Part shown: positions 24,622 through 57,759 of the stretch, in pieces | Layout: each line of letters starts with the position of its first letter | Numbering within the stretch: position 1 is the first letter of the stretch | Assembly (NCBI RefSeq): GCF_964355755.1 | Contig: NC_092673.1 | Span: 687,001 to 751,000, forward strand | DNA: 64,000 bases | DNA from: Antedon mediterranea | Lineage: Eukaryota; Echinodermata; Crinoidea; Comatulida; Antedonidae | Direction: 5' to 3' | The notes under the pieces: model-generated | What the model was told of the DNA's origin: nothing | Seen by the model: only the letters and a program-made list of their open reading frames with translations | The model's database searches: none | Position numbers and translations under genes: made by a program

Positions 24622-24691
24622 TTACTTAATTCCTTTGGCTGCTAACTCCTCCCTTACTCGACTCAAATAAGTTGGATCTGGATAACCATAC
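24622..24691 (-). CDS. Paralog A exon 15: DTC C-terminal end and stop
   Basis: The last coding exon reads (P)[20 protein letters not shown], then IK and TAA at 24622-24624. The YPDP-YL motif is diagnostic of DTC. The 3' untranslated sequence aligns with that of B down to at least 24240. A possible AATAAA (plus-strand tttatt) is near 24244, though its use is uncertain. Confidence 0.9.
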
Positions 24692-56000: not shown

Positions 56001-57759
56001 GCTGAACTAAGGAGTTACTGTAGACAGGAACATCTAATAATATACTACAGTCAACTCTCCCAATACCAGACACCTTTGGGCTGCCAATATGTCTGGTTTT
56101 CCAGAACTCATTTTCCACTGATGAATGAATGAGTGAAAGTCTGGTATTCGGAATTTGTTTTTTAAAGGTAAAAAGGAATTCGGGACCTTTTGGAAAGTCT
56201 GGTATTGGGAGAGTTTCTGGTTTTCAGATAGTCCGGTAAAGGGAGAGTTGACTGTATTACCTTTTGCATTGGTAAACTGCACTATAGCTATATCTCGCTT
56301 GGTTCCAACTGGATACATGAGCCATTGTAAATGATATTTTGATGGAAAGATTTGCAGAAGGTTTTCGATGGTTGCCTTATCATCATCCTTTACATCAAAG
56401 CCTGTAACAATCAATCCAGCTTCAACAGGTACACGTCGCACCTGATTCTAAATTTTGTAATAAAACTTAACAGAATTAGTGACATTTATACATCTTGTGG
56501 CAGAACCACTATTTGACCGTTATTAAAAACTGCTTGGACAATTTTAGAGATTTTGTTTCATTTTTAAAGATGCAAATATTGTTCAGTAACTGAACAATCA
56601 AAGAAAACAACAATAAAGAATAAAGAAAATATATAAATACAGTAGTACTAAACATATATATTTCTTTTTGTATTTTGTTCACACCAAATATATTTATCAA
56701 GCCAATGGCCAGTTATTTAGCTGCTGTTCACACAGTACACTGTCACCATAACTTGATTCTATTTTTAGAATCCGTATTTTTTTAAAATCATTACCAAGAA
56801 TTATGTACTGCATTATTAAACAAATAAAGAACAAATATAAACCTGAAAATTATAATACAGTATGAAATAATATGGAATTCTTCTTGCCTGGGACTGAAAC
56901 TACTACTCTGTCTACTACTCCTCCTAATAATGTGACTTTAGAATGCTAATATCTTCATATTCAGATATTTAAAGGCTAACAACAGTACTACTATTATTTT
57001 ATTATTCTTTATTTGGTCAAATATAAAAAAATACATCAGAATTTCTTATATACACTGCAGAGATAATAAAAAATATACATATAAAATACAAATCTATATA
57101 AAATCACATAAAATATCAAAAAGTCTACGATCCAGGTGTTCTCTCCATGAGTTAGCGTTGGACAAATTTGTTATAGATGACAATAGATTGTGGGACAAAT
57201 GACTTATTATAGTATTTAGTACGGTTTTGAGGTAGACAGATACGAATATTAGATGGAAGAAAAGTGTATTCCTTATGGAGGGGGTGGTCTGTTTTGGAGA
57301 GTATACGTTTTACTAAGGAGAGAACACCTGCATCATAGTTGAAATTAAGGACGAATACATCATCTCCAATAACCCTTCTGGTAATTTTATTTAATAATTC
57401 CTTATCTTTTTCATATAAACAAAGGCTCTCAGATAATTCTACAAAAAGAGCACTAAGTATGGTCGACTGGTAGAACATTATAAAAGAATGAATATATTAT
57501 TATAACATTAAATTTCCTAAGTTGTCTTAACAGATATAGCCGTTGTTGTCCTTTTTATAGATAGATATTTTTTAATGTAGTAGTACTAGTAGTTAGCCTT
57601 TATAGTACCATGATGAGCTCCTGGCCCAGGCAGCCTGCTACTAGTGCTAGAGCTCACTGTAGCACTCTCTAGCACTATTATATAAATAACTGTACCATTT
57701 TTATTAGGCCCAATTATAAACAAAGAAGATATTTTACTTACTTTTTCTGGAGTAGCCAT
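44004..57759 (-). CDS. Paralog B: intact macro-macro-RING-RING-DTC protein, DTX3L/PARP9-like
   Basis: Fifteen coding exons: 57742-57759, 56261-56447, 55606-55655, 54896-55370, 54540-54601, 54148-54403, 50520-53851, 49825-50008, 49377-49450, 47546-47746, 46887-47082, 46581-46657, 45038-46342, 44461-44672, 44004-44073. The total is 6699 bases, an uninterrupted 2232 codons plus stop. Domain order is as in A. Macro 1 lies at about residues 1250-1430, macro 2 at about 1740-1930, then RING, RING, DTC to the end. Predicted role: a cytoplasmic or nuclear ubiquitin ligase that recognises ADP-ribosylated targets through its macro and DTC domains. There is no PARP catalytic domain. Differences from A are expanded linker repeats, a shorter exon 13 and eight extra residues in exon 12. 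Confidence 0.9.
44461..44672 (-). CDS. Paralog B exon 14: DTC domain core
   Basis: Same length and phase as A exon 14, and encodes the same DTC signatures ([40 protein letters not shown]). Exon 15 (44004-44073) finishes with [20 protein letters not shown] and TAA. Confidence 0.92.
45038..46342 (-). CDS. Paralog B exon 13: macro domain 2, tandem RINGs, start of DTC
   Basis: A 435-codon exon encoding macro domain 2 ([44 protein letters not shown]), then [14 protein letters not shown]...CGHRFCSNC...CPMC and [14 protein letters not shown]...CGHKFCRNC...CPIC, each followed by VLKGN, then [20 protein letters not shown]. Compared with A, an 88-codon KH-like stretch between the [10 protein letters not shown] region and RGDDG is absent in frame. 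The RING and DTC parts are nearly identical to A, suggesting recent duplication, gene conversion or constraint. Confidence 0.93.
46887..47082 (-). CDS. Paralog B exon 11: RRM-like module
   Basis: It encodes [20 protein letters not shown] through [20 protein letters not shown], clearly paralogous to A exon 11 with substantial amino-acid divergence. This contrasts with the near-identical RING-DTC exons, so the accessory modules are evolving faster. Confidence 0.78.
47950..49080. other. Insertion-like block in intron 9 of paralog B
   Basis: The intron is about 1.63 kb in B but only 166 bp in A. The extra sequence includes 'tcgcgtggacgcgactc' and 'cggttggtcggtctgtcggt' (48035-48110). It looks like a non-autonomous repeat, but no terminal repeats or coding sequence could be recognised. 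The right side contains a copy of the hairpin repeat family (49090-49300). Confidence 0.45.
49090..49300. repeat. Dispersed hairpin repeat family (four copies)
   Basis: A segment of about 200 bp with core 'accattgtccgacagacaat' and 'tttgctttaaattacat'. Related copies lie at about 42310-42520 and 47220-47425 in the same orientation, and at about 28890-29080 inverted. The core ATTGTCTGTCAGACAAT is nearly self-complementary. All are in introns or intergenic sequence around the duplicated genes. It is probably a small non-autonomous DNA transposon. Confidence 0.6.
50520..53851 (-). CDS. Paralog B exon 7: expanded acidic repeats, KH-like module, macro domain 1
   Basis: A 1111-codon exon. Four copies of the 33-residue [13 protein letters not shown] unit (about 53330-53760) precede nine copies of the 29-residue [20 protein letters not shown] unit (about 52400-53190), against two and three in A. 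After a charged linker and a KH-like region ([20 protein letters not shown] onward) comes macro domain 1 (about 50615-51150), with [28 protein letters not shown] and [13 protein letters not shown]. Its loop reads HNGG where A has HGGG. The repeats read open on the opposite strand too; those frames are shadows. Confidence 0.92.
54896..55370 (-). CDS. Paralog B exon 4: KH-like plus RRM-like segment
   Basis: It encodes [20 protein letters not shown], a serine-rich linker and [20 protein letters not shown] through [11 protein letters not shown]. It matches A exon 4 in phase and layout, two residues longer. Exons 5 (54540-54601) and 6 (54148-54403) continue with a KH-like unit ([20 protein letters not shown]). 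Confidence 0.7.
56048..56254. mobile_element. 207-bp pogo-like MITE in paralog B
   Basis: Perfect 14-bp terminal inverted repeats, CAGTCAACTCTCCC and GGGAGAGTTGACTG, are flanked by TA. The terminal sequence and the following AATACCAGACACC resemble pogo/Tigger ends (inference from memory of the family). It abuts the donor of exon 2 (exon end 56261), so it lies only a few bases inside the intron. Confidence 0.88.
57000..57480 (-). mobile_element. 3' end of a LINE in intron 1 of paralog B
   Basis: The frame 57478-57152 encodes a 108-residue piece with [15 protein letters not shown] and [14 protein letters not shown]. This pattern (HPLH...LPS...RT..Y.NSF.P..I) is common at the C terminus of non-LTR retrotransposon polyproteins. 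An AT-rich tail follows toward 57000. Sense orientation relative to the host gene. The boundaries are approximate. Confidence 0.6.

Follow-up and report, generated by a model that had tools for sequence, protein, structure and literature searches.

What does a gene encode that places macrodomains, RING fingers and a DTC domain in one chain? The window analysed here, a stretch of 64,000 nucleotides (C4:687001-751000, contig NC_092673.1) from the 354-Mb genome of the crinoid Antedon mediterranea, holds two such genes in tandem on its minus strand, here called A and B. DTX3L, PARP9 and PARP14 are an interferon-induced set, whose parts make and remove ubiquitin-ADP-ribose marks. A preliminary description of this DNA proposed a Rosetta-stone fusion of PARP9-type macrodomains with DTX3L. 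We consider it likely, judging from the sequence, that A and B are instead tandem Deltex ligases of the DTX3/DTX3L class with macrodomains built into the chain; they would read and erase ADP-ribose marks and write ubiquitin onto them. The stop of A at 24622 and the start codon of B at 57759, both given in that description, are exact.

The gene models of A and B were obtained from stop-to-stop frames, a gene finder trained on long frames from this family, and the agreement between A and B. According to our splice model, gene B (57759-44004) consists of 15 exons, located at 57759-57742, 56447-56261, 55655-55606, 55370-54896, 54601-54540, 54403-54148, 53851-50520, 50005-49825, 49450-49377, 47746-47546, 47082-46887, 46657-46581, 46342-45038, 44672-44461 and 44073-44004. 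Together they give 6696 nucleotides and a protein of 2231 residues with zero internal stops. All 14 introns are of the GT-AG type, the exon positions are matched in A, and splice positions and phases are concordant between the two genes. An exon placed by the gene finder at 57438-57328 was dropped by eye; its frame resembles the tail of a reverse transcriptase, and no counterpart was seen in A. Proposed exons at 57054, 56117-56019, 49149, 48635, 48130, 47267 and 44223 were also dropped, as they have no counterpart in A.

In the assembled B protein, Pfam identifies two macrodomains (PF01661, 187 bits in all), at 50709-51062 and 45638-45991, followed by RING 1 (45359-45478), RING 2 (45176-45295) and a DTC (PF18102). 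The DTC obtains 198 bits and is complete, spanning positions 1-133 of 133; it is encoded by three exons within 44004-45154 (45154-45038, 44672-44461 and 44073-44004). Exon 8 (49825-50005) is RRM-like, with RRM_PARP14_3 at 25.3 bits, just above the cut-off of 24. Exon 11 (46887-47082) resembles RRM or NID, the NID match being below its cut-off (21.8 bits, cut-off 25), and a KH_PARP14_2 match is also below cut-off. Two KH-like units are located before macrodomain 1, at 51219-51620. No PARP domain (PF00644) is listed as a match in the window stretch or in the assembled B protein, and Pfam finds no WWE domain in the latter. The domain order and the open frame of B are established. The single-chain union of macrodomains with RING-DTC that the preliminary description proposed is supported, as is the lack of a PARP domain in these sequences. 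Its list of modules holds in B for the two macrodomains, the two RINGs, the complete DTC and the RRM; the KH part stays below cut-off, with weak fold evidence.

Gene A (24622-36606) has exons homologous to those of B, with macrodomain 1 at 31296-31652, macrodomain 2 at 27433-27789, the two RINGs at 26971-27270 and, behind them by its exons, a complete DTC in three parts within 24622-26949 (26949-26833, 26465-26254 and 24691-24622). A model of 14 exons without exon 10 (30069-29868) has 5721 nucleotides and 1906 residues, with no internal stop, and is open through to the stop codon.

To which Deltex proteins does the ligase part belong? Compared with PDB chains, the DTC of the window matches human DTX3L best (167.8 bits), followed by DTX2 (158.8) and DTX1 (152.7). 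A tree of eight DTC rows, with human DTX3 and DTX4 left out, separates A, B, two further genes of this genome (C and D, see below) and DTX3L from DTX1, DTX2 and the animal's own WWE-type Deltex, with a split support of 100/100. The DTCs of A, B, C, D and DTX3L are also without two residues found in DTX1 and DTX2; the WWE-type Deltex is without one of these. A grouping of the A/B DTC with DTX1 and DTX2 was considered and is contradicted by the split. In the phylogeny that the preliminary description had named as a check, the DTC accordingly falls, as far as these rows go, on the side of DTX3L, where that description had put it. Gene C as the sister of DTX3L is not rejected by the approximately unbiased (AU) test (p 0.42). 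By their RING-DTC, A and B are predicted Deltex ligases, which we file under the DTX3/DTX3L kind.

The macrodomains tell a different history from the one first proposed. The PDB lists of both are headed by PARP14 chains. Among chains with one domain, macrodomain 2 obtains 79.8 bits with PARP14 macrodomain 1 (MD1), 75.8 with AF1521 and 75.7 with PARP9 MD1, and macrodomain 1 obtains 73.6 bits with the MacroD-type chain 5lcc, 72.5 with PARP14 MD1 and 62.3 with PARP9 MD1. We built a tree of 20 macrodomain rows, several of them long, with human PARP9 MD2 left out. A starred clade (97/92) joins both macrodomains of A and B with the macrodomain of gene C and with two genes for membrane-anchored macrodomains, and the macrodomains of gene D attach to it at 86/87. 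PARP9 MD1, PARP14 MD1 and the MD1s of two of the animal's own PARP14-like genes form another group (93/91, not starred), and the A/B macrodomains stand apart from PARP9 MD1 and from PARP14 MD1-3. The AU test rejects the placement of PARP9 MD1 with the group of A, B, C and the membrane-anchored macrodomains (p 0.019), as well as with macrodomain 2 alone (p 1.2e-6).

These results bear on the proposal that a PARP9-type pair of macrodomains was fused to DTX3L and does the work of the PARP9/DTX3L complex. The gene does unite the kinds of modules found in that complex, without a PARP domain, and macrodomain 2 has PARP9 MD1 among its better PDB matches. However, PARP9 MD1 sits with the human and the crinoid PARP14 MD1 domains, both AU placements are rejected, and for macrodomain 1 PARP9 MD1 ranks below PARP14 MD1 and the MacroD-type chain. 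PARP9 homologs are moreover reported in jawed vertebrates only (PMC10221186), or "only in vertebrates" (PMC4245714). PARP9 is confined to jawed vertebrates in that account, the A/B macrodomains are placed apart from PARP9 MD1 and PARP14 MD1-3, and separate PARP14-like genes exist in the genome; as far as can be judged, then, the gene did not arise by fusing PARP9 to DTX3L, and we regard that origin as very improbable. Neither the label PARP9-type nor the Rosetta-stone reading is supported; a member of the DTX3/DTX3L lineage that bears macrodomains is the better description.

The membrane-anchored macrodomains come from three single open frames at C4:162.3-163.0k, 165.5-166.3k and 55.5-56.5k, each with one macrodomain and an N-terminal hydrophobic stretch, by eye probably a membrane anchor. 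Two of the three were put in the tree, and both fall in the clade of the window macrodomains.

The residues required for the chemistry were then compared with known enzymes. The catalytic pair of the DTC, a His and a Glu, is H582 and E608 in DTX2, and H707 and E733 in DTX3L (PMC7615817, PMC10810221). In an alignment with DTX2, DTX1 and DTX3L both are kept in A, B and C; gene D has the His in the alignment and the Glu in its last exon. The two RINGs differ behind the last CXXC, at the linchpin position: in both A and B RING 1 ends in CPMCR, with an Arg, and RING 2 in CPICG, with a Gly. The linchpin Arg is a feature of canonical RING ligases, a Gly at this place occurs in DTX3, and the DTC is able to bind ADP-ribose (PMC7615817). 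For the macrodomains, an active domain is described by an Asn or Ser and a Gly in loop 1, and by a hydrophobic and then an aromatic residue in loop 2 (PMC10221186). Judged by eye, macrodomain 2 of A, B and D matches the active pattern. In A and B, macrodomain 1 reads NF, with an Asn at the hydrophobic place of loop 2; gene C has IS, and macrodomain 1 of D fails the rule.

An ordinary RING ligase steered by its macrodomains could explain part of this pattern: it would mark lysines of ADP-ribosylated proteins for destruction, and the DTC would merely aid binding. The canonical Arg of RING 1 and the capacity of the DTC to bind ADP-ribose fit such an enzyme, but A, B, C and D all retain the catalytic pair of the DTC, and we judge this explanation unlikely, if the more credible of the two considered so far. 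On the reading of A and B as Deltex ligases, we suggest a mechanism based on the kept DTC residues, the active pattern of macrodomain 2, the partial fit of macrodomain 1, and the Arg and Gly of the two RINGs. The RRM and KH modules would serve in assembly of the protein and in its docking to PARP14-like enzymes or RNA; in DTX3L, PARP14 and PARP9 are bound by KH-like domains (PMC13224862, PMC11080071). Macrodomain 1 would hold ADP-ribosylated targets. Macrodomain 2, beside the ligase, may bind and perhaps remove ADP-ribose, as a reader or a brake, while RING 2-DTC at the C-terminal end would write ubiquitin onto ADP-ribose. The writer of the ADP-ribose itself would be a separate PARP14-like protein. 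The activities, the docking and any immune role of A and B are what we infer from the sequence.

The two paralogs have diverged unevenly. Between them, the ratio of nonsynonymous to synonymous divergence (dN/dS) is 0.39 for macrodomain 1 (dS 0.34) and 0.42 for macrodomain 2 (dS 0.19). It is 0.77 for the linker, 0.57 and 0.78 for two KH-like parts, and 0.44-0.71 for five further exons. For the ligase part dS is far lower, 0.011 at the RING-RING-DTC start and 0.021 in the middle DTC exon, where dN/dS is 0.61 on 3 changes and uninformative. The regions 27906-26219 (A) and 46108-44426 (B) are 94.6% identical over 1690 columns, introns included, and this block runs from ahead of macrodomain 2 to past the middle DTC exon. 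The low dS and the block of high identity with its introns make a recent gene conversion of the RING-DTC part probable, while the reader part diverged.

Coding repeats of 87 and 99 bp, both multiples of three, are found at 52407-53764 in B and 32727-33324 in A, with 8.6 and 4.5 copies in B and 3.0 and 2.1 in A. By their sequence they are an acidic linker of variable length; its 87-bp part covers 52407-53160 in B and 32727-32990 in A.

Several results weigh against the reading of A and B as single-chain DTX3/DTX3L-class ligases. Within the DTC tree the A/B pair is closest to the DTX1/DTX2 branch, with weak support (57/85), and A/B as the direct sister of DTX3L is neither supported nor rejected (AU p 0.25). 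The KH_DTX3L match in the assembled B protein obtains 22.7 bits, under its cut-off of 27.4. AlphaFold2, run on two-row alignments throughout, gives two KH-like units for the stretch before macrodomain 1 of B, with a predicted local distance difference test (pLDDT) of 49-83 by block; the macrodomain 1 part of this model is poor, and the stretch from macrodomain 2 through both RINGs failed, with an unusable mean pLDDT of 31. Among the 50 rows shown by VIA-align for the KH-like model (Z 6.5-8.0, near background), KH is named in 15, including FBP, KSRP, vigilin, PCBP and Nova, and another 23 come from elongation factor G/2 or the spliceosome, elongation factor G also being among the leading rows. 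The model lends weak support, of topology only, to a KH-like fold. The dN/dS of the RING-RING-DTC start is 1.3 on 6 changes, which is uninformative. No result of this analysis supports an immune regulation of A and B: the interferon-type motif GAAANNGAAA is absent from all three upstream stretches, and with fewer than 0.2 expected per stretch by chance this is little informative. Finally, exon 10 of A has 202 nucleotides against 201 in B, causing a +1 frameshift, and the models of both genes were built from splice signals and A/B concordance.

The last two points would also fit gene models that fuse two genes, or a gene A, perhaps B too, in decay. In the same direction point a reverse transcriptase-like frame, named by eye, inside the last intron of A (25028-26038, plus strand) and a stretch of exon 13 (B numbering) that is kept in A and missing from B. 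Yet splice positions and phases agree between the genes, B is open across 2231 codons, both macrodomains have a dN/dS below 1, and gene D, elsewhere on C4, likewise has two macrodomains ahead of a RING and a DTC. Fused or decaying genes seem to us improbable. Exon 10 of B is a multiple of three in length, and dropping the exon from A retains an open frame to the stop. The one spliced frame that the preliminary description saw in both paralogs stands for B, and for A it is conditional on this omission.

Relatives of the ligases are found elsewhere in the genome, which has at least five DTC loci: A, B, C, D and the WWE-type Deltex on C3. All four DTX3/DTX3L-class genes found (A, B, C and D) have macrodomains, and these counts are lower bounds. 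Gene C (C4:25.159-25.167 Mb, minus strand) has RRM-like exons, one macrodomain, a RING-like unit, a RING and a DTC; the RING-like unit is identified by eye and by a Pfam match below threshold. Gene D (C4:4.732-4.737 Mb, plus strand) encodes two macrodomains, then, by eye, a RING-like unit, a RING and a DTC whose last exon is near L003:5209. Incomplete copies of this gene are located at C4:4748.8-4751.4k (macrodomains) and 4746.2-4748.0k, with no DTC match listed there, and just ahead of them, at C4:4744.8-4745.7k, is a frame that looks kinase-like by eye.

Three PARP14-like genes, at C4:25.169-25.191, 25.194-25.214 and 19.637-19.650 Mb, each have macrodomain and PARP matches, and their separate existence is established. 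In parts of the first, Pfam finds RRM_PARP14_1 and WWE above cut-off; for the second, Pfam was run on one PARP exon. At a fourth, partly seen locus, at 22.86 Mb, the matches are limited to macrodomains and KH-like frames. Gene C, whose first visible ATG is at 25167018 (minus strand), and the first PARP14-like gene, whose start codon is at 25168859 (plus strand), diverge, with 1.84 kb between the two positions. The link across a long intron from the first exon of this PARP14-like gene to those behind it is proposed by the gene finder and unproven. Vertebrate PARP9 and DTX3L have a common bidirectional promoter, in one locus with PARP14 (PMC13224862, PMC11080071), and the head-to-head pair of gene C and its neighbour recalls this cluster.

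One history, which we put forward tentatively and with some doubt, is that the DTX3L ancestor carried macrodomains in its chain and was a head-to-head neighbour of PARP14; these macrodomains would have been lost in jawed vertebrates, and a duplication of PARP14 into PARP9 at the same divergent promoter would have resupplied them in trans. PARP9 would then be a replacement part, and there would be a historical answer to why DTX3L needs a PARP partner that is near-inactive yet has a hydrolase macrodomain. One genome is compatible both with ancestral macrodomains lost in vertebrates and with a gain in the crinoid lineage.

Some further features were observed outside these genes. Between 1368 and 21375 the window has nine arrays of a 25-bp repeat at intervals, with 16.7 to 44.7 copies each. 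Several of their frames are open and GC-skewed, and the arrays are probably satellite rather than gene. At C1:19.07-19.11 Mb there are fifteen STING-domain matches on one strand over about 34 kb, with exons matching many STING chains, probably several STING-like genes in tandem. Four homeodomain matches are located inside one open frame of 3044 codons at C8:12532856-12535357, and a cluster of 12 homeodomains on C2 resembles what we take to be Hox1-8, Hox9/10 and three Hox11/13 genes, a set that suggests a non-vertebrate deuterostome, namely an ambulacrarian (hemichordate or echinoderm). Searches for COX1 and for the GFP family had no match, the GFP control likewise matching nowhere, and Rfam had none in the window.

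How do A and B compare with the known systems? DTX3L is described with an RRM, five KH domains, one RING and a DTC, and no macrodomain is part of that description (PMC13224862). It shares with A and B an RRM-like and putatively KH-like N-terminal part, the RING, the side of the family on which the DTC falls, and the catalytic His and Glu; the PARP14-family neighbour in head-to-head orientation is shared by gene C only. Unlike it, A and B contain a pair of macrodomains and a pair of RINGs. C and D contain one macrodomain and two, respectively, and in each of them the RING is accompanied by a further RING-like unit identified by eye. With DTX3, likened here by description and outside our sequence comparisons, RING 2 of A and B shares the Gly at the linchpin (PMC7615817). 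In the literature searched, mostly without subscription papers and with protein databases outside its scope, no macrodomain-bearing Deltex is described, although published or annotated examples may exist.

PARP14 has a kit of RRM, KH and macrodomain like that of A and B, where the KH units are putative, but no WWE or PARP domain is found in the A/B protein, and the PARP14-like genes are separate here. As in the PARP9/DTX3L complex, macrodomains predicted to bind ADP-ribose are next to a RING-DTC. That complex consists of two chains, in which PARP9 has a PARP-like domain and macrodomains derived from PARP14, whereas A and B are single chains with macrodomains of another clade. The coupled making and removal of ubiquitin-ADP-ribose marks has been called paradoxical (PMC10810221). 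A natural single chain with macrodomains by its RING-DTC, in an animal that also has PARP14-like genes, makes this coupling directly testable in vitro and suggests that it may predate PARP9. The head-to-head pair of a DTX3L-class and a PARP14-like gene offers a concrete synteny test of the origin of the complex. Together, A and B may show how an antiviral complex that vertebrates split over partner proteins evolved.

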